Positions 13,737 to 57,367 of a DNA stretch of 64,000 bases are shown here, piece by piece (the first letter of the stretch is position 1; each line of letters opens with the position of its first letter). The notes below the pieces were generated by a model, which saw only the letters and a list, made by a program, of their open reading frames with translations, made no database searches and was not told the origin of the DNA. A program made the position numbers and the translations under genes. The stretch comes from Phragmitibacter flavus (GTDB lineage Bacteria; Verrucomicrobiota; Verrucomicrobiia; Verrucomicrobiales; Verrucomicrobiaceae), in contig NZ_VAUV01000004.1 of NCBI RefSeq assembly GCF_005780165.1, forward strand, positions 310,001-374,000, written 5' to 3'.

Positions 13737-13751
13737 AGCAATTCCGGAAAG

Positions 13752-13814
13752 GGACCGCGAAGTTTCACTTCGCTTAACTCACCAACTTCAGAGCGAAGTA
13801 AAACTTCGCGGTCC
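13752..13814. repeat. Family A repeat, paired double hairpin
   Basis: Arms of 22 nt (13752-13773 and 13793-13814, one mismatch) around a 19-nt loop. Each arm starts or ends with GGACCGCGAAGT and is itself a small hairpin (GCGAAGT/ACTTCGC), so the unit can fold as one long stem or a cruciform. A single arm with the exact right-arm sequence occurs at 22709-22730. It could terminate fmt transcripts. Confidence 0.85.
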
Positions 13815-13864
13815 TTTCAGCGTCTCCACAACCCCCTTCACACTGACTCGCATACACAAAAAAA

Positions 13865-16658: not shown

Positions 16659-16740
16659 GACAAAAGACTTGAAGACACAAGAAACGGATCACAAAGTCAC
16701 CGTTTCAGGTCTTTTGTCATTTGTCTTCAAGTCTTCTGTC
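16659..16740. repeat. Interrupted palindrome between divergent gcvH-like and ridA starts
   Basis: Outer arms 16659-16677 and 16722-16740 pair at 18 of 19 positions (GACTTGAAGACA core). Inner arms GAAACGG (16681-16687) and CCGTTTC (16700-16706) pair perfectly over a 12-nt loop. The right side carries an extra GTCTTTTGTC unit. Both genes start within 32 nt of an outer arm. Confidence 0.8.
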
Positions 16741-17204: not shown

Positions 17205-19700
17205 TCACTCCAGGATATTGTCGCGCACCACCAAATCCGGTGACGTGTCCTCGGTCCCGATCCCGGTCAGATGATTCCCGCTCACCGTATTGCCGGTGAT
17301 GGTCCCCGCGCAACCTTCCGCCACGAAAATGCCGTGCTGGGCGTTCATCGTGCAGGTGTTTGAGGTGACCTCCGGTTTAAATCCTTTGCCGAAGACCGTG
17401 ATGCCATGACCGCCATTGGCAGAACTCTTGTTGTCGCTCAACCGCAAAACTCCATCCGCAGCGCCTGTGGCAAAGATGCCAAACAGCTTGTTTTTTTCGA
17501 CGATATTGGCTTCCGCCACACTGTCATTCGACGCTCCGTCAAACACCAGACCCGCCTCCTTGCACTCGCGCAATGTCGACCCGCGAATGCTGCCCAAGGC
17601 ACCGTTCAAAACGGAAATGCCCACCAGATTGTTTTCACAAGTCGCGCCTTGAACCGTGATCGAAACCCCGTCCCCATCCGCAGCAAGACCCGCTTCCACG
17701 TTGCCTTTCGCCACCGTGCCATCACCAAAAGTGGCCGAGGCTGCATCCACCACAATCGCGCCGGAACCGCCGTTGCCCTCAAATACACACTGCGCAAACG
17801 TCGGTGCCGTGCCGATGAATCGCACCGCCGCTCCGCTGCCGCCGTTCTTGCGCAACTCACAACCCGTCACCTGCGCCGTGGCACCGCTCTCCAGCACCAG
17901 CCCATGACCCACGTTGTTGCGGAACACACATTTTTTTAGCTCCACCTGCCCGGTGCCAGTCACGACCACTCCGTCGCCCACGCCCTTCTCTACGGTGCAG
18001 TCGCTCAACACCACACTGCTCGCTTTCAGATAAACGACCGGCCAGGTTTTCTCATCGGACACCTCCAACCCGGTATGCTGAAACACCAAACCGCTGATGC
18101 TGACATCGCGACACCCTTCCGCCAACAGTGCAGGGCCACTCTCGCCATCCGCCTGCACAATCACCTTGCCAGCGGTGGCCGCCTTCAGTTTCACGCCATT
18201 CTGGAGGCGCACCTGCTCATCGTAAATTCCGTCGGGTATGGAGATCGTCTCGCCCGGCTTGGCCGTTCTTATGGCGTTTTGAATGGTGGTGAAAACAGGC
18301 GCAGCGGGCGCTGGCTCGGGCTCGGGCACCGGGTCCGGCGTTGGTTTCGGCGGTGTGGGCACGTCAGGCTTGGTTTCCACCATCGGTTTCGGATCAACTG
18401 GAACCGGAACTGGCTCTGGGTCAGGGGTTGGCTCAGGCTCAGGCGTCGGTTGGGGATCTTCCTCCACCTTCTTCGGCAGATCCTTGACCACCTCCTGCTT
18501 GCCTTTGAAAAACGGGGTGTTGTGATAAATCCACCATCCCGAGGCTCCCAGCGCCCCCACCGCAAGCATCAACATCACCAAAGCCACCCACAACCAAACC
18601 ATCCCACTGCCACCTTGGGCTTCGTTCTCGACGGAGGGAGTTTTCGACTTCGTTTCCGCTTCAGTCGGTTTAGCAGCAACAACTTCTTTCGGAACCGGTG
18701 GAGGTGCGATCACTGGCTGAGATACGGATCCCGCTTCCACCTCCTTCGGCAACGCTGGCGGACGACGCGCCACTGGCATCGTTCCCACCACGGCCTCAAG
18801 CCCCAGCAGCGCCGCGATCTCCCCCGCATCCGCCGGACGCTTGGCCGGATCTTTATCCAAACACGCCAGCAACGTCTCCTCCCAAATCGGCGGGATCACC
18901 TCCAAATCCGTCAGTCCAAACTCCGCCCGCCGCTCTGTTGCACTCACCGCCGCTTCATGGCGCAATTGAAGCCCAATGTTGCCACTGTGAAACGGGGGTT
19001 TGCCCGTCAGCAATTCATAGATCGTGCTCGCAAAAGCATACAAATCATCGGTAATCTCCGGCTTGCGACCATCCGCCTGCTGCGGACTCATATAGGCAAG
19101 CGTTCCCGTCGAATTGCCCACCGCCAGCGTCGCGCGGTTGATCGCATCCGTGATGCTTCGTGCGATCCCAAAATCGGTCACCTTCAAATCCCCGGCGCGA
19201 TCCACCATCAAGTTCGCCGGCTTCAGATCCCGATGAATCACCCCCACGCTGTGATGCGCATAACCCAACGCCGCCAACAGCTGCGCCACCCATTTTTCGA
19301 TCTCGCGAACTTCAAAAATCCGCTTCGGCTGCTTCGCACGCAAACCCGCCAGACTCTCCCCGTCAATGAATTCCATGCTAATCGCCGCATTCTCCTCATC
19401 CAAGAGGAAATCATACGTCTTCACGATGTGCGGATGCCCCAAAAGCAAACCCTTGCGCGTCTCGTCCTTTAGCTCCTCCACCGCCACTTCGTCATAGCGG
19501 ATCAACTGCGGTGCAAACTTCAACGCCACCTCGCGCTTGAGCCGCTCATCCAGCGCCAGCCAGACCACACCCATCCCGCCGCGACCCAGCAACTTTTGCA
19601 GCATGAACCGGTCAAACACCCGGTCACCCTTCTGGTGGCCCCGCATGGTGGGGCCAAAATCGATGTCGTCGAGATTGATGGGAGGCACTTCGTCAGCCAT
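17205..19700 (-). CDS. Membrane Ser/Thr protein kinase with extracytoplasmic beta-helix domain
   Basis: 831 aa from the ATG at 19698-19700 (an open frame further upstream is not kinase-like). The cytoplasmic Hanks kinase is complete: GRGGMG at 39-44, Lys61 in VALKF, HRDLKPANL, DFGIARS and a MSPQQADG activation-loop end. A single membrane helix (VALVMLMLAVGALGASGWWIY) starts near residue 400, followed by a Pro/Glu/Asp-rich rod (PTPEPEPTPDPEPVPVP). The C-terminal 320 residues are a right-handed parallel beta-helix of NosD/Pbl type with repeated G-x-G/N motifs (ENNLVGISVLNGALG). It may sense a carbohydrate or wall ligand outside. It is divergent from an ECF sigma gene. Confidence 0.93.
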   Translation of the reverse strand: MADEVPPINLDDIDFGPTMRGHQKGDRVFDRFMLQKLLGRGGMGVVWLALDERLKREVALKFAPQLIRYDEVAVEELKDETRKGLLLGHPHIVKTYDFLLDEENAAISMEFIDGESLAGLRAKQPKRIFEVREIEKWVAQLLAALGYAHHSVGVIHRDLKPANLMVDRAGDLKVTDFGIARSITDAINRATLAVGNSTGTLAYMSPQQADGRKPEITDDLYAFASTIYELLTGKPPFHSGNIGLQLRHEAAVSATERRAEFGLTDLEVIPPIWEETLLACLDKDPAKRPADAGEIAALLGLEAVVGTMPVARRPPALPKEVEAGSVSQPVIAPPPVPKEVVAAKPTEAETKSKTPSVENEAQGGSGMVWLWVALVMLMLAVGALGASGWWIYHNTPFFKGKQEVVKDLPKKVEEDPQPTPEPEPTPDPEPVPVPVDPKPMVETKPDVPTPPKPTPDPVPEPEPAPAAPVFTTIQNAIRTAKPGETISIPDGIYDEQVRLQNGVKLKAATAGKVIVQADGESGPALLAEGCRDVSISGLVFQHTGLEVSDEKTWPVVYLKASSVVLSDCTVEKGVGDGVVVTGTGQVELKKCVFRNNVGHGLVLESGATAQVTGCELRKNGGSGAAVRFIGTAPTFAQCVFEGNGGSGAIVVDAASATFGDGTVAKGNVEAGLAADGDGVSITVQGATCENNLVGISVLNGALGSIRGSTLRECKEAGLVFDGASNDSVAEANIVEKNKLFGIFATGAADGVLRLSDNKSSANGGHGITVFGKGFKPEVTSNTCTMNAQHGIFVAEGCAGTITGNTVSGNHLTGIGTEDTSPDLVVRDNILE

Positions 19701-19825
19701 GACAGGAACAGCCCCGCATTGTCGGAGAAACCCGTCCGAATGCAAACAACCGTTGCAATGGATCACTCCGGCTGAAGGCGAAGGCCAACCCCAGCCTTTG
19801 TCAGGCGTCACGATCTGCAAAAAAA

Positions 19826-19853
19826 TTCACGCACATTTGCACGATTCTAGTAT
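19826..19853 (+). promoter_or_regulatory. Candidate promoter of the ECF sigma gene
   Basis: TTCACG (19826-19831), a 16-nt spacer and TAGTAT (19848-19853). It would start transcription only a few nt before the ATG at 19866, giving a nearly leaderless mRNA. The match is fair, not strong, and an ECF-type self-regulated promoter could lie elsewhere in 19701-19865. Confidence 0.3.
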
Positions 19854-19865
19854 GCTGGACCCGTC

Positions 19866-20612
19866 ATGAGCGACACCACCAGGACTCCAGGGGCCAACGA
19901 TCCCAATTTTGTCACCAAATGGGACGTCGTGAACCGCGCCAAAGGCGGCGGGCACGATCGCGACTCCGCCAGCGCCCTCGAAGAGCTCTGCCGCATCTAC
20001 CGCCACCCGCTCTACGTCGCCCTGCGCTTCAAACATCAATACAGTCACCACGACGCCGAAGACCTCGCGCAAACCTTCATCGCCTGGCTCATCCACGGCG
20101 GTTACCTCACCCGCGCCGACCCCGAAAAAGGCCGCTTCCGCTCCTTCCTCCTCAGCTATCTCGACAACTTTGTCGCCAATCACCGTCGTAAAATTCACGC
20201 TCAAAAACGCGGTGCCGGTGCCATCCACGTCCCTGCGGATTTCCCCACCGAAACCAACGGCTTCGGCGTCGTCCCCAAGGACGAAAACACTCCAGACCGC
20301 GAATTCGACCGCGCCTGGACACTCGCCACCTTCCGCGAAGCCCTCGACCGGCTCCGCGCCAAATTCGCCGAAGAAGGCAAATCTGAAGAATTCGACATCC
20401 TCCAGGAGTTCCTGCTGCGTAAACGAGACAAGGGCGACAGCTACGCCGATGCCGCCGCCCGCCTCGGCATCAACGAAGTCGCCATGCGCCAGCGCGTCTC
20501 CCGTTTTGGCCGCAAATTCCGTCAAACGCTGGAAGACATCATCCGTCCCATGGTCGCCGAAAACGAACTGGATGACGAAATGAGTTACCTCTGGCGCTGC
20601 TTCGAAAAATAG
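19866..20612 (+). CDS. ECF-type RNA polymerase sigma factor
   Basis: 248 aa. Region 2 is seen in HPLYVALRFKHQYSHHDAEDLAQTFIAWLI (core-binding part AEDLAQTFIAWLI), followed by RGRFRSFLLSYLDNFVANHRRK-like promoter-melting residues (GRFRSFLLSYLDNF). Region 4 is the helix-turn-helix SYADAAARLGINEVAMRQRVSR. A long inter-domain linker (residues about 115-160) and a charged tail are larger than in minimal ECFs. No anti-sigma gene is adjacent. The divergent Ser/Thr kinase is the likely controller, as in sigma groups that are phosphorylated or partnered with kinases in Planctomycetota and Verrucomicrobiota. Two protease-like genes follow in the same direction. Confidence 0.9.
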   Translation: MSDTTRTPGANDPNFVTKWDVVNRAKGGGHDRDSASALEELCRIYRHPLYVALRFKHQYSHHDAEDLAQTFIAWLIHGGYLTRADPEKGRFRSFLLSYLDNFVANHRRKIHAQKRGAGAIHVPADFPTETNGFGVVPKDENTPDREFDRAWTLATFREALDRLRAKFAEEGKSEEFDILQEFLLRKRDKGDSYADAAARLGINEVAMRQRVSRFGRKFRQTLEDIIRPMVAENELDDEMSYLWRCFEK

Positions 20613-20637
20613 ACCTGCTTCGCTTCCAACCAAATTC

Positions 20638-21636
20638 ATGTTCGCTCCAAGGATCAACGCCCTCCCCCGGCGTTTGCTCCCCGCACTCGCGGGTCTGTGG
20701 CTGACGACCGCCGCTGCCACCGCTTCTCAGGTCGAAGCGACCGCGCCCGCTCCCATCACCATCGATCAACTCCGTGATGTCCAGCAACGCGTCCAGACCG
20801 CGCTCAAGTCCGCCGAAAAGACGCTCGTTTCCATCGAATGCGGCACCGGCACCGCCAGCGGCGTCATCGTCAGTCCCGACGGACTCGTGCTCACCGCCGC
20901 CCATGTCACCACCGAAGTCGGCAAAAAATACAAAGTCACTTTGCCGAACGGACGCAATGTCGAAGGCACCTCCCTCGGTCTCGACACCGCCACCGACGCC
21001 GCCATGCTGCAACTCCCGGCCCCCGCCAAGGAGTGGCCCTACGCCAGCATCGATCGCGAAACCCACCGCCTCAAACCCGGTGCCTGGTGCTTCGCCATCG
21101 GCCATCCCGGCGGCTACAACAAATCCCGCGGTCACGTCCTGCGCATCGGCCGACTCGTCAAAATTTCCGCCAACATGATCCAAAGCGACTGCGTCCTGAT
21201 GGCCGGCGATTCCGGCGGACCGCTGTTCAATCTCGACGGCGAAATCATCGGCATCCACAGCCAGATCTGGCAGGGTCGCGAACAAAATCTCCACGTCGGC
21301 ATGTCCCCCTTCCTGCGTTCTTGGGACGCCATGAAACGCGGCGAAACCATCCGCGTCTGGGCCCAGGGCAGTGGTGGCTGGATCGGCCTCGGCAACGTTG
21401 CCAAACCCGACGGACTCGTCATTCAGGAAGTGGTCGCCAACTCCCCCGCCGCCCTCGCCCAGCTGCAAACCGGCGACCGCATCCTCACCATCAACAACCA
21501 GCCGGTCACCGTCCCTGCCGACTTCTCCACCGCGATCCGACGCCGCGCCGCCGGGGAAATCGTCACCCTGCAGATCCAACGCGACGGCCAGTTGCGAACC
21601 GTCGACATCAAACTGCAACCCCGACCGGAGCCTTGA
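20638..21636 (+). CDS. Secreted trypsin-like serine protease with PDZ domain
   Basis: 332 aa with a signal peptide (about residues 1-30). The chymotrypsin-fold triad is intact: His in LTAAHVTT, Asp in DTATDAAML and Ser in MAGDSGGPLFN. A PDZ domain follows from about residue 240 (GLVIQEVVANSPAALAQLQTGDRILTINN). This is the DegP/HtrA architecture with one PDZ. It lies 25 nt after the sigma gene and 4 nt before a degenerate paralogue, so all three are likely one transcript. It probably acts in the periplasm, either in quality control or in regulated proteolysis linked to the sigma/kinase pair. Confidence 0.92.
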   Translation: MFAPRINALPRRLLPALAGLWLTTAAATASQVEATAPAPITIDQLRDVQQRVQTALKSAEKTLVSIECGTGTASGVIVSPDGLVLTAAHVTTEVGKKYKVTLPNGRNVEGTSLGLDTATDAAMLQLPAPAKEWPYASIDRETHRLKPGAWCFAIGHPGGYNKSRGHVLRIGRLVKISANMIQSDCVLMAGDSGGPLFNLDGEIIGIHSQIWQGREQNLHVGMSPFLRSWDAMKRGETIRVWAQGSGGWIGLGNVAKPDGLVIQEVVANSPAALAQLQTGDRILTINNQPVTVPADFSTAIRRRAAGEIVTLQIQRDGQLRTVDIKLQPRPEP

Positions 21637-21640
21637 ACTG

Positions 21641-22669
21641 ATGGCCCATAAAAAACTCATCTCTGCCCTCGCGTTTTTTTCGGTGGCGCTCATCGCGCTG
21701 CCGGTTGCAGCCGATGTGCTTCCACCCCAGCAACGCACCAACGGCAGCGCCACCCTCCAGCCCCTTGAACCCCTGCGCCAAAGCGCCAGCTCCAGCCGCG
21801 TCGCCATCGGCCAATCCCGCGACGCCACCCTCAGCGGCGTGTTCGTCGCCGAGGACGGCTACATCCTCACCAAAGCCAGCGAAGCCGAACAGTTCAAACC
21901 GTGGAAAATCTTCTTGGAAGACGGCACCGACCTCGACGCCCGCCTGGTCAAACGCGATCAAAAGCTCGATCTCCTCCTCCTCAAAATCGAACGCCAGGGC
22001 TTGAAAGCCATCGAGTGGAGCCAGACCATCGCCACCCAGGCCGGCGACTGGCTTTGCTCCCTCACCGATAGCGGCCGCCAGATCCGCCTCGGCGTCCTCA
22101 GCGCCAAAAGCCGCAACATTCCCGACTCCGGCGTCGTCCTCGGCGTGTTGATGGGACCCAACGAAGACGAAGATGGTGTCCTTATTGAAGAAGTCGCCGA
22201 AGACAGCCCCGCCCAGCTCGCTGGATTGAAGCCCGCCGACCTCGTCATCTCCATCGACGGCGAACCCGTCACCACCAACAAGATGCTCAATCAAATGGTC
22301 AACTCCCGCCTCGCTGGCGACGTCGTCAAACTGCGTTACCTGCGCGAAGGCAATCCCGGTGAATGTGAAGTCCGCCTCGCCAGCCGCAGCCGCGTGATGA
22401 TGAACTGGGGTGGCGAAGATTTTGCCAACGGCGGCACCTCCGTCCGCACCGACAATTTCCCTAAGATCCTTCAACACGAAATCCCCCTCCAGCCCGCCGA
22501 CATGGGCAGCGCCCTCTACAATCTCGACGGCCAGGCCATCGGCCTCAACATCGCCCGCGTCGACCGCGTCACCACCTACGCCCTACCCGCCGACCTGTTC
22601 AGCGAGGACCTGCAAAGTTGGATAAAGGAAGACCGGGAACGGGAGTTGCCAGTGGGCAGTAGGCAGTAG
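21641..22669 (+). CDS. Catalytically dead HtrA-like paralogue (pseudoprotease) with PDZ domain
   Basis: 342 aa, ATG at 21641, 4 nt after the active protease gene. It has a signal peptide (ALAFFSVALIALPVAA) and the same fold order. The catalytic His position reads LTKASEAE (His to Ser) and the Ser position reads ADMGSALYNLDG (GDSGG to ADMGS, Ser to Met), while the Asp region KLDLLLLKI remains. A PDZ domain (VLIEEVAEDSPAQLAGLKPADLVISIDG, core EDSPAQLAGLKP) sits in the middle. Loss of two triad residues with the rest conserved suggests a binding or regulatory role, perhaps in a complex with the active enzyme. The stop codon TAG and the last four residues come from a GGCAGTA tandem repeat. Confidence 0.88.
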   Translation: MAHKKLISALAFFSVALIALPVAADVLPPQQRTNGSATLQPLEPLRQSASSSRVAIGQSRDATLSGVFVAEDGYILTKASEAEQFKPWKIFLEDGTDLDARLVKRDQKLDLLLLKIERQGLKAIEWSQTIATQAGDWLCSLTDSGRQIRLGVLSAKSRNIPDSGVVLGVLMGPNEDEDGVLIEEVAEDSPAQLAGLKPADLVISIDGEPVTTNKMLNQMVNSRLAGDVVKLRYLREGNPGECEVRLASRSRVMMNWGGEDFANGGTSVRTDNFPKILQHEIPLQPADMGSALYNLDGQAIGLNIARVDRVTTYALPADLFSEDLQSWIKEDRERELPVGSRQ

Positions 22670-22676: not shown

Positions 22677-22708
22677 TCTGCGATTACATTTGCACGGGCC
22701 AGCAAAAA

Positions 22709-22730
22709 GGACCGCGAAGTTTTACTTCGC
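22709..22730. repeat. Family A repeat, single arm
   Basis: GGACCGCGAAGTTTTACTTC plus GC: identical to the reverse complement of 13793-13814. By itself it folds into a small hairpin (GCGAAGT/ACTTCGC). It lies inside the inverted GGCAGTA pair. Confidence 0.85.
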
Positions 22731-53608: not shown

Positions 53609-55732
53609 ATGCAAACCTTCCGACTCCTCTTCCCCCTCGCGCTTCTGTTCCTCCACATTCCCATCCCCCTCCCCGCTCAAGACCTCCCCGCACAAGACCT
53701 CAAAGACCTCAAGGGCTACTTCCCGTTCAATCCCCCAACTTCCCTCACCGCATGGGAGCCCCGCAAAACCTACGTCCGCCGCCAGATCCTCGTCTCCCAA
53801 GGCCTCTGGCCGTTACCCACCAAAACCCCGCTCAACCCCGTCATCCACAGCCCCATCGACTGCGGCACCTACACCATTGAAAAAGTCTACTTCCAAAGTG
53901 CCCCCGGACTCTTCGTCACTGGCAATCTCTACCGACCCAAAAATCCCCGAGGCAAAGTCCCCGGCATCCTCTTCGCCCACGGCCACCGTAAAGACGCCCG
54001 ATTCGATCTCGAACCCGAACTCACCGTCCGCAAAAACATCGCCATCGGCGCCGAACGCTTCACCCGCGGCGGACAAAGCACCTTTCAATCCCTCTGCCAC
54101 CAACTCGCCTCCATGGGCTGCGTCGTCTGGCAATGGGACATGCTCAGCGACTCCGACGCCCAACAGTTCTCCGAAGAAATTGTCCACAAATTCGCCAAAC
54201 AACGCCCCGAGATGAACACCGTCGAAAACTGGGGCCTCTACAGTCCGCAAGCCGAAGCCCACCTCCAAAACATCATGGGCATCCAAACCTGGAACGCCAT
54301 CCGCAGCCTCGACTTCCTTCTCACCCTTCCCGAGGTCGACCCCACCCGCACCGCCATCACCGGAGCCAGCGGAGGCGGCACCCAAACCATGCTTCTCGCC
54401 GCCATCGACGACCGCATCCAGCTTTCCTTCCCCGTCGTCATGGTCAGCACCGCCATGCAAGGCGGCTGCACCTGTGAAAACGCCTCCCTTCTTCGCATCA
54501 ACACCGGCAACGTCGAATTCGCTGCCCTCTTCGCCCCCAAACCCCAAGGCATGAACAGCGCCGACGACTGGACGAAAGAAATGGCCACCAAAGGCTTCCC
54601 GGAGCTTCAAAAACTCTACCAACTCTACAACGCCCCCAAGGATCACCTCCTCCTCCAACGAGGCGAAATCTTTCCCCACGCCTACAACGCCGTCAGCCGC
54701 TCCGCGTTTTACACCTTTCTCAATCACCACTTCAAACTCGGCTTCGAATCCCCCATCATCGAAACCGATTTCGAACCGCTCACCCGCGAGCAACTCACCG
54801 TCTGGAATGCCGAGCACCCCGCCCCCAAATCCAACGGCACCGACTTCGAACGCACCCTCCTCCGCTGGTTCGATGACGACGCCCAAAAACAGCTCCAACA
54901 CCCCCAAGCCCTCAAACAAATCATCGCCCCCGCCCTCGAAGTGATGATCGGCCGCACCTACGCCCAAGCCGGTGAAGTCACCTGGGGCCTCGAAGAAAAA
55001 ACCGAACATCCCACCCATCTCGAAATGCAAGGCAGCCTCACCAACACCACCCATCACGAAACCATTCCGACCACCTGGCTCTACCCCAAACAAGGCAGCC
55101 AGCGAGTCATCCTCTGGCTCGACAACGACGGCCGCAATTCCCTTCGCGAGGCCAATGGCAAACTCAAACCCACCGTCCAAACCTTGCTCGACCAAGGCAA
55201 CATCATCCTCAGTGCCGACCTCCGCCTCCAGCCTCAAACGCCTCAACAAACTCCTATCGTCGACAACCCTCGCCAATTCGCTGGCTACACCCACGGCTAC
55301 AATCCCGCCCTCTTCGCCCAACGCACCCACGATCTCCTCACCCTCACCACCTTCCTGCAGAACAGCAAAGTCGGCAACCATCCGAACCCCAACCGCATCG
55401 ACGTCATTGCCCTCGGCGAAACCGGACCCATCGCCATCGCCGCCCGCGCTCTCACCGGCAATGCCATCAATCACCTCGCCGCCCAAACCAACGGCTTCCG
55501 TTTCTCCCAGATCCTCGACTATCGCCACCCCCAATTCCTCCCCGGTGCCGCCAAATACCTCGACCTTCCCGGCCTCATCGCCCTCAACGCCCCGCACCCG
55601 ATCCTTCTCATCGGCGAATCCGATTTCAAAGATGTCGTCGCTGCTCCATCCCTCACCCAATTGCCCTCAGACTCCCCAGCGGAAACTGCCATCGTCCACT
55701 GGCTCCAAAAATCCGACGCCTCCGCAAGGTAA
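53609..55732 (+). CDS. Secreted acetyl-xylan-esterase-like alpha/beta-hydrolase, 707 aa
   Basis: ATG at 53609 gives a clean signal peptide (LLFPLALLFLHIPIPLPAQ); the open frame upstream only translates the microsatellite (YSYSYSSS). The hydrolase domain has KVPGILFAHGHRKDARF, MGCVVWQWDMLSDSDA, and nucleophile Ser in AITGASGGGTQTM. A second half (residues about 400-707) with RVILWLDNDGRN and HPILLIGESDFKDVV may be a decayed second hydrolase domain. Likely a polysaccharide deacetylase or glucuronoyl-type esterase; substrate not known. It is divergent from the SDR and upstream of the sulfatase cluster. Confidence 0.87.
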   Translation: MQTFRLLFPLALLFLHIPIPLPAQDLPAQDLKDLKGYFPFNPPTSLTAWEPRKTYVRRQILVSQGLWPLPTKTPLNPVIHSPIDCGTYTIEKVYFQSAPGLFVTGNLYRPKNPRGKVPGILFAHGHRKDARFDLEPELTVRKNIAIGAERFTRGGQSTFQSLCHQLASMGCVVWQWDMLSDSDAQQFSEEIVHKFAKQRPEMNTVENWGLYSPQAEAHLQNIMGIQTWNAIRSLDFLLTLPEVDPTRTAITGASGGGTQTMLLAAIDDRIQLSFPVVMVSTAMQGGCTCENASLLRINTGNVEFAALFAPKPQGMNSADDWTKEMATKGFPELQKLYQLYNAPKDHLLLQRGEIFPHAYNAVSRSAFYTFLNHHFKLGFESPIIETDFEPLTREQLTVWNAEHPAPKSNGTDFERTLLRWFDDDAQKQLQHPQALKQIIAPALEVMIGRTYAQAGEVTWGLEEKTEHPTHLEMQGSLTNTTHHETIPTTWLYPKQGSQRVILWLDNDGRNSLREANGKLKPTVQTLLDQGNIILSADLRLQPQTPQQTPIVDNPRQFAGYTHGYNPALFAQRTHDLLTLTTFLQNSKVGNHPNPNRIDVIALGETGPIAIAARALTGNAINHLAAQTNGFRFSQILDYRHPQFLPGAAKYLDLPGLIALNAPHPILLIGESDFKDVVAAPSLTQLPSDSPAETAIVHWLQKSDASAR

Positions 55733-55912
55733 ATGGAAGCAGACAACTGCCGCGCATGGCTTGCGCCCATGAATGAGGCGCAGCAGCACCCTGACCGCTC
55801 GGCGCGACCCTCAGTTCTGAATGCCAGCATTGGTCCGGTGCGGATTGCCGATGGGAAATGAGTTTTTGAAAGAATAACAAAAGGTTGAGATGGATGGCTT
55901 CGTTTCCCGGGG

Positions 55913-57367
55913 ATGCGCTTCTGGAGAATTCTGATGTTGACGGGTGTTGGTCTGGCCGCTTTTGCCGTGCCGAACTTGCGGGCGGAGGAGCGTCCGAATT
56001 TTGTGGTGATCCTTTGTGATGACCTCGGTTGGGGAGACTTGGCTAGTTATGGGCATCCGCATATCAAGACACCGAATCTCGACCGGCTGGCGGTGGAAGG
56101 GATGCGGTTGACCAGTTTCTACTCGGCGGCTCCGGTGTGTTCGCCTTCGCGGGTGGGGTTGTTGACGGGGAGGAATCCGAACCGGGCGGGGGTTTATGAT
56201 TGGATTCCGCATGTGGAACAGCGCAATCAGTCGGGCAAGGCGAGCCGTGCATTGGTGCACATGCGCAAAGAAGAGGTGACGTTGCCGCAGGTGCTGCAGA
56301 AAGCGGGGTATGCGACGGCGCTGTCGGGCAAGTGGCATTGCAATGCGGACTTCAATACGGCGGGACAGCCACAGCCTGGGGAGGCGGGCTTTGATCACTG
56401 GTTTGCGACCCAGAACAATGCGGCGCCTTCGCACGAGAATCCGGTGAATTATGTGCGCAATGGCAACGAGGTGGGGCCGCTGGAGGGATATAGCTGTCAG
56501 TTGGCGGCGCGTGAGGCGATTGATTGGATCGAGGCTTTGCCGAAGGAAAAACCGTTCTTTTTGTATCTGGCGTTCCATGAGCCGCATGAGCCGGTGGCGT
56601 CTCCGCCGGAGTTGGTGAAAGGATATGAGGGGATTGCGCGCAACGAGGACGAGGCAGAGTATTTTGCCAATGTCGAGAACATGGACCGGGCGGTGGGCGA
56701 GCTGATGGCGACGCTGGACCGGTTGAAGCTGGCGGAGAATACGGTGGTGGTGTTTAGCAGTGACAACGGGCCGGAGACATTGAACCGGTATCGGGCTTCC
56801 AACCGTTCTTACGGAACGCCGGGGCCATTGCGGGGAATGAAGTTGTGGACGACGGAGGCGGGTTGCCGGGTGCCGGGGATCGTGCGCTGGCCGGCGAAGA
56901 TCAAGCCGGGGCAGGTGAGCGATGAGGCGGTGAGTTCCTTGGATTTTCTGCCGAGCTTTGCCTCGCTGGCGGGGGCGTCGTTGCCGGAGGGGCTGGCATT
57001 GGACGGGGCGGACATGATGGCGGCTTTAAACGGAGGCAAGGTGGCGCGGGAGAAGCCGTTGTTCTGGATCTACTTCAATGCGCTCAACGAGCAGCGGGTG
57101 GCGATGCGGGAGGGGGACTGGAAGATTCTGGCGAAGCTGAATGGCGGAAAGTTGCCGACAGTGAGCAACGTTACGGAGGGTTCGGCAGCGAAGGTGCGGC
57201 AGGCGGTGTTGACGGATTTTTCGCTGTTTGAGATTGCGAAGGACCAGGGAGAGGAGCGGGATCTGGCGCAGGAGCAGCCGGACAAATTGAAGGAGATGCA
57301 GGGTAAACTTGAGGCGGCTTACCGGGAGTTGACGGGGTCGATGTTTGTGTGGCCGGATGTGGATTGA
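55913..57367 (+). CDS. Secreted sulfatase 1
   Basis: 484 aa with a signal peptide (LMLTGVGLAAFAVPNLRA). Type I sulfatase: metal Asp pair in VVILCDDLGWGDL and the formylglycine site C76-S-P-S-R80 followed by VGLLTGR. Further active-site segments are LSGKWHCNADFN, FLYLAFHEPHEPV and FSSDNGPETLNR. It removes sulfate esters, probably from algal or host glycans, after a maturase converts Cys76. It leads a three-gene run. From here on the plus strand is G-rich, unlike the preceding 55 kb. Confidence 0.95.
   Translation: MRFWRILMLTGVGLAAFAVPNLRAEERPNFVVILCDDLGWGDLASYGHPHIKTPNLDRLAVEGMRLTSFYSAAPVCSPSRVGLLTGRNPNRAGVYDWIPHVEQRNQSGKASRALVHMRKEEVTLPQVLQKAGYATALSGKWHCNADFNTAGQPQPGEAGFDHWFATQNNAAPSHENPVNYVRNGNEVGPLEGYSCQLAAREAIDWIEALPKEKPFFLYLAFHEPHEPVASPPELVKGYEGIARNEDEAEYFANVENMDRAVGELMATLDRLKLAENTVVVFSSDNGPETLNRYRASNRSYGTPGPLRGMKLWTTEAGCRVPGIVRWPAKIKPGQVSDEAVSSLDFLPSFASLAGASLPEGLALDGADMMAALNGGKVAREKPLFWIYFNALNEQRVAMREGDWKILAKLNGGKLPTVSNVTEGSAAKVRQAVLTDFSLFEIAKDQGEERDLAQEQPDKLKEMQGKLEAAYRELTGSMFVWPDVD

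Follow-up and report, generated by a model that had tools for sequence, protein, structure and literature searches.

Four adjacent genes of Phragmitibacter flavus, encoding a kinase (KIN), a sigma factor (SIG), an exported protease (PROT), and a catalytically dead protease paralogue (DEAD), raise the question of which of them belong together as a functional unit. They occupy positions 17205-22669 of the window, the 64,000-nucleotide stretch of DNA analyzed here, and a preliminary description had read them as a single module. The four open reading frames that it listed were all confirmed at their ends (Table 1). Its remark that no anti-sigma gene is present also held for the flanking genes examined, among which Pfam searches detected none; these genes (radical SAM, GcvH-like, RidA, and aminopeptidase P) are housekeeping-like.

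Table 1. Features of the KIN-SIG-PROT-DEAD locus, in window coordinates
Feature	Position	Strand	Basis
KIN, transmembrane Ser/Thr kinase with periplasmic right-handed beta-helix (probable start)	17205..19700	-	Pfam Pkinase, Beta_helix; orthologue homology start
KIN/SIG divergent intergenic region, ~165 bp	19701..19865	.	
SIG, ECF-like sigma factor, DAED intact	19866..20612	+	sub-cutoff NCBIfam match; orthologues 72-80% identical
PROT, exported serine protease of the HtrA type with complete triad and a single C-terminal PDZ	20638..21636	+	Pfam; alignment A3; DegP/MucD matches
DEAD, exported pseudo-HtrA with His->Ser and Ser->Met, PDZ predicted to be nested in dead protease barrel	21641..22669	+	
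Nested PDZ of DEAD, approx. residues 166-247	22136..22381	+	Pfam PDZ_2 167-247 (searched frame); strands between barrel-2 halves (model)

PROT follows SIG after 25 bp and DEAD follows PROT after 4 bp, and these short gaps suggest that SIG, PROT, and DEAD likely form a single operon in the window genome. The longest open reading frame of KIN reaches 19820 (17205-19820(-)); homology to its relatives runs from about residue 38-41 onward, and the true start is probably the ATG at 19700, so that about 165 bp separate KIN from SIG. The surroundings showed some further features. A 25-nt intergenic repeat, AAAGGACCGCGAAGTTTTACTTCGC, of which no copy is expected by chance, occurs in three copies (window 13748-13774, 13792-13817, and 22705-22730), each capable of forming a hairpin; it resembles an interspersed repeat of the REP type, and one copy lies directly 3' of the protease genes. 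An inverted repeat, GACAAAAGACTTGAAGAC..., is located at window 16659-16740, where the GcvH-like and RidA genes diverge. At window ~54000-56000, the GC skew jumps from about -0.33 to +0.33, a sharp change of sign like that at a replication origin or terminus.

PROT has the features of an HtrA-type serine protease, namely, a trypsin fold (Trypsin_2, E=7.8e-26), the His-Asp-Ser triad H89/D120/S192, and a C-terminal PDZ domain, preceded by an N-terminal signal sequence as judged by eye. Membership in the Do (DegP) subfamily, NCBIfam TIGR02037, was rejected at 139.1 bits versus a cutoff of 416.2. DEAD comprises a degenerate trypsin domain and a PDZ domain (Pfam and NCBIfam), and the intact catalytic His and Ser of an HtrA-type serine protease are missing from it, with His replaced by Ser and Ser by Met in the window copy. 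Among 36 aligned DEAD proteins, the catalytic His position is occupied by Ser in 35 and by Glu in the remaining one, and 35 have exchanged the catalytic Ser for Met, Ile, Val, Cys, Ala, or Leu. The DEAD of locus L117 has Ser in the nucleophile column but no GDSGG context. Active copies in the same alignment retain His, Asp, and Ser. In the fused DEAD halves of loci L118 and L119, Cys was found at the nucleophile position (QCGG and ACGG, respectively), and His is absent. Conservation in the f1 family of DEAD proteins lies in noncatalytic motifs (T.ASE, RTDxFPxxxQHxxPLxPxDMGG, and NIARxDRVxxxALP), with T.ASE and a long C-terminal motif invariant or nearly so.

The PDZ domain of DEAD occupies an unusual place. 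In a comparison of the DEAD profile with 22kg, a DegP-like chain, positions 65-167 of the profile matched 95-200 and positions 277-313 matched 202-238, and the intervening positions 179-249 matched the PDZ domain at 290-360. This order of matches therefore has the PDZ domain of DEAD splitting protease parts that are contiguous in normal HtrAs. In an AlphaFold model of DEAD (pLDDT 77.6, pTM 0.59), computed from a shallow input alignment of 11 rows, the barrel-2 strands at residues 137-158 and 276-316 flank the PDZ domain. Residues 36-334 of this model superimposed on the PDZ-less protease domain of DegQ (3sti) over 178 of 184 residues with an rmsd of 2.7 and a Z score of 20.6 (VIA-align), and Z scores of 20-22 versus HtrA protease domains identify a chymotrypsin-like HtrA fold. 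Judged from profile and model, the PDZ domain is inserted inside the second barrel of the dead protease domain. It shares ~34% identity with the PDZ domain of PROT over 72 residues. The preliminary description had recognized an inactive protease copy in DEAD but had missed this nesting.

We searched the DEAD profile (A1) and the PROT profile (A3) in the same 288 sampled genomes of the phylum, with score thresholds of our own choosing. PROT and DEAD were found in an identical set of 30 genomes, in equal copy numbers in every one of them (55 and 55 in total). A PROT gene on the same strand adjoins 54 of the 55 DEAD genes, with PROT first in all but one case; in genome G021, PROT and DEAD lie on different contigs. 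Nine genomes of the genus g10 possess neither gene. At four loci, both proteins are fused in a single frame, in the order PROT-DEAD in L116, L118, and L119 and in the order DEAD-PROT in L117. A multi-FHA-domain-like protein is encoded just upstream of the latter fusion (L117, 2570-3769). The earlier view of an active protease paired with its inactive copy is thus strongly borne out across the sampled genomes, even though adjacency and co-occurrence, mostly within one taxonomic order, partly reflect shared descent. In a tree of the protease domains, from which the PDZ domains had been excised, all DEAD proteins fell on one side of a split with a support of 1.0 and a branch of 1.25, and PROT formed a separate clade, a topology that fits a single old duplication.

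The distribution of PDZ domains within the pair varies. In all 13 g10 genomes that carry the pair, PROT of the best-scoring pair has no PDZ domain, its profile match ending near position 232 of 322, and the sole PDZ domain of that pair is supplied by DEAD. An AlphaFold model of a fused PROT-DEAD protein (pLDDT 80.7, pTM 0.72; input alignment of 26 rows, likewise shallow) is compatible with a defined arrangement of the two parts; its pTM says little about an interface, because MAFFT had placed the N-terminal halves of DEAD rows onto the PROT half of the fusion. No nested-PDZ protein or pseudo-HtrA pair of Verrucomicrobia came up in our search of the open-access literature. PROT and DEAD constitute a real conserved unit, apparently not described before, whose pseudoprotease is unusual in its nested PDZ domain.

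From the comparisons and structural models, we consider it probable that the conserved functional unit at this locus is PROT plus DEAD, a two-subunit periplasmic protease in which DEAD is the PDZ-bearing regulatory subunit. The strict co-occurrence of both proteins, their fusion in either order, and the complementary pattern of PDZ loss are read most simply as signs of a physical complex. PROT would be the catalytic HtrA subunit and DEAD its partner, an ancient pseudo-HtrA that retains the chymotrypsin-like fold without the catalytic His and Ser and has a PDZ domain in the second barrel. DEAD would co-assemble with PROT via an HtrA-type interface, its nested PDZ domain might bind substrate tails or stress peptides, and DEAD might in this way recruit the substrate, switch PROT on, or both. 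The customary picture of HtrA proteases is one of homo-oligomers with regulatory PDZ domains of their own. Whether PROT and DEAD represent a new two-subunit type of HtrA, that is, an obligate partnership with a pseudo-HtrA, with substrate recognition moved to the dead subunit and the subunits sometimes fused, is in our judgment evenly balanced. If true, a conserved dead copy with an inserted PDZ domain would show that regulation can pass to a pseudoenzyme, and Verrucomicrobiota would offer a genetically tractable system in which this occurs.

DEAD might also act in the opposite direction, as a pure chaperone, a scaffold, or an inhibitor that restrains PROT in the manner of a decoy or adaptor, with its PDZ domain tethering the pair to a membrane or cell wall partner. 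A pseudoenzyme can be an inhibitor just as it can be an activator, and the invariant noncatalytic motifs of the f1 family point to a surface for binding. However, the loss of the PDZ domain from PROT and its retention in DEAD in g10 genomes favor a positive, shared role in substrate binding, and we regard restraint by DEAD as rather unlikely.

What, then, of SIG and KIN? SIG scored below threshold in Pfam (region 2, 20.4 bits versus 24; region 4_2, 18 versus 25.7) and in the NCBIfam sigma70-ECF family (34.1 bits versus a cutoff of 42.9). Despite these scores, the sequence of SIG is that of a sigma factor: both region 2 and region 4 are present, and the DAED motif is intact. DAED is present in the window SIG and in L011 and L012, and the alignment excerpt of L009 has DSED. 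Of the 68 genomes of the family, 8 contain an orthologue with 72-80% identity, and these are spread over five genera; a scan of the genome contigs with SIG returned three loci only. KIN matched Pkinase (E=1.4e-41), Beta_helix (E=1e-29), and NosD (E=9.3e-16) in Pfam and has HRD and DFG motifs and one transmembrane segment, characterizing it as a Hanks-type kinase. It was rejected as a PASTA kinase (PknB/Stk1) at 209.4 bits versus the curated 450, with the beta-helix in place of PASTA repeats. A kinase/beta-helix homologue at L079 (G097:C20:57522-59960) matched with one in-frame TGA, which might be a boundary effect or indicate a damaged gene.

The preliminary description had linked all four genes in one circuit, in which the kinase, on detecting a ligand such as glycan or wall material through its external beta-helix, would phosphorylate the sigma factor, and the sigma factor would in turn activate the PROT-DEAD operon; taken as a module of one lineage, this is the next reading to be weighed. 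The gene order and the very short gaps between SIG, PROT, and DEAD speak for it, as does the existence of kinase-paired ECF groups (PMC8999054). We compared the eight genomes with a SIG orthologue, drawn from a collection without another genome of the window's genus; the Phragmitibacter MAG among them was entered twice, as G142 and G399. KIN adjoins SIG, in divergent orientation, in the window and in this MAG, and in the remaining six (G017, G045, G137, G052, G063, and G417), KIN and SIG are on separate contigs or hundreds of kilobases apart. PROT-DEAD adjoins SIG in three of the eight (the window, G052, and G063), is found away from it in G017, G045, G137, and G142, and is absent from the SIG-bearing contig of G417. 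In two genomes of the genus g5, SIG precedes PROT-DEAD by ~600 bp, which again speaks for the circuit. Yet the full set of four was found in the window alone, and PROT-DEAD is widespread in genomes that have no SIG orthologue. KIN, for its part, has a different conserved neighborhood in four other genera, where a conserved lipoprotein gene and one further conserved gene accompany it (G045, G052, G063, G137, G017, G059, and G097). MAFFT alignments of the regions upstream of SIG and PROT in relatives revealed no common motif, and an upstream promoter scan gave a single sigma-70-like match, near chance.

On the basis of the eight SIG-bearing genomes, we reject the four-gene module; its genes occur independently in relatives. 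A kinase-sigma pairing fared better. A kinase gene is located within 1.5 kb in 9 of 27 nonorthologous SIG homologues, and, within the family, KIN and SIG orthologues are found in an identical set of five genera, including genomes in which they are unlinked, but the two adjoin in only a quarter of the SIG orthologues. The overlap in genera fits a functional link, and shared descent alone could explain it; a SIG-KIN link is plausible but weak. We regard the complete circuit as unlikely. In the best explanation of the gene neighborhoods, KIN and SIG became neighbors of PROT-DEAD through lineage-specific rearrangement, and control of PROT-DEAD by SIG may have been acquired locally in the window genome. 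The result corrects the tempting but wrong view of four adjacent genes as a single signalling module. An ordinary HtrA duplication with a decaying second copy, to which the loss of catalytic residues from DEAD might point, is highly improbable given the identical His->Ser change in nearly all copies, the long-term retention of DEAD, the fusions in both orders, and the strict co-occurrence with PROT.

Known systems resemble parts of this locus. In the ECF43 pairs EcfP/PknT and EcfK/PknS, phosphorylation confers charge on a sigma factor that has no DAED motif, whereas other kinase-linked groups (ECF59, ECF61, ECF62, ECF217, and ECF283) retain DAED (PMC8999054). SIG and KIN are similar to the ECF43 pairs in that a sigma factor gene lies beside a transmembrane Ser/Thr kinase gene with no adjacent anti-sigma gene. 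They differ from them in the infrequent adjacency of their orthologues and in the DAED motif of SIG, which it has in common with the other groups; this motif, retained in region 2.2, rules out an ECF43-type phospho-switch.

PDZ domains placed inside or against a protease domain are found in S41 Ctp and M50 RseP proteases. These have other protease folds, whereas in DEAD a whole PDZ domain is predicted to split a chymotrypsin-like barrel. In SpoIVB, a PDZ strand reaches into the protease core (PMC12502668). DEAD differs from SpoIVB in the predicted insertion of the entire PDZ domain in its barrel.

PROT shares its trypsin fold, triad, and C-terminal PDZ domain with DegP, DegQ, MucD, and DegS, and DEAD shares the fold. 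These proteases act as homo-oligomers. PROT, in contrast, has a conserved dead partner, and it remains far from the Do family by score (139 versus 416 bits). The closest likeness to such a partnership is in magnetotactic bacteria, where the dead HtrA MamO is required for MamE-dependent proteolysis, binds metal, and needs its C-terminal transporter domain for activation (PMC4794232). In both cases, an active HtrA is conserved together with a catalytically dead HtrA homologue. PROT and DEAD come from a different phylum and differ further in their natural fusions and in the loss of the PDZ domain from some of the catalytic partners. Pfam found no transporter domain in DEAD, which ends after the barrel and has the nested PDZ domain instead. 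Because the nested PDZ domain takes the place of the MamO transporter domain, the role of DEAD is likely to be the binding of substrates or stress peptides coupled to PROT, and MamO offers, by analogy, a precedent for a dead copy acting as the activator of its catalytic partner.
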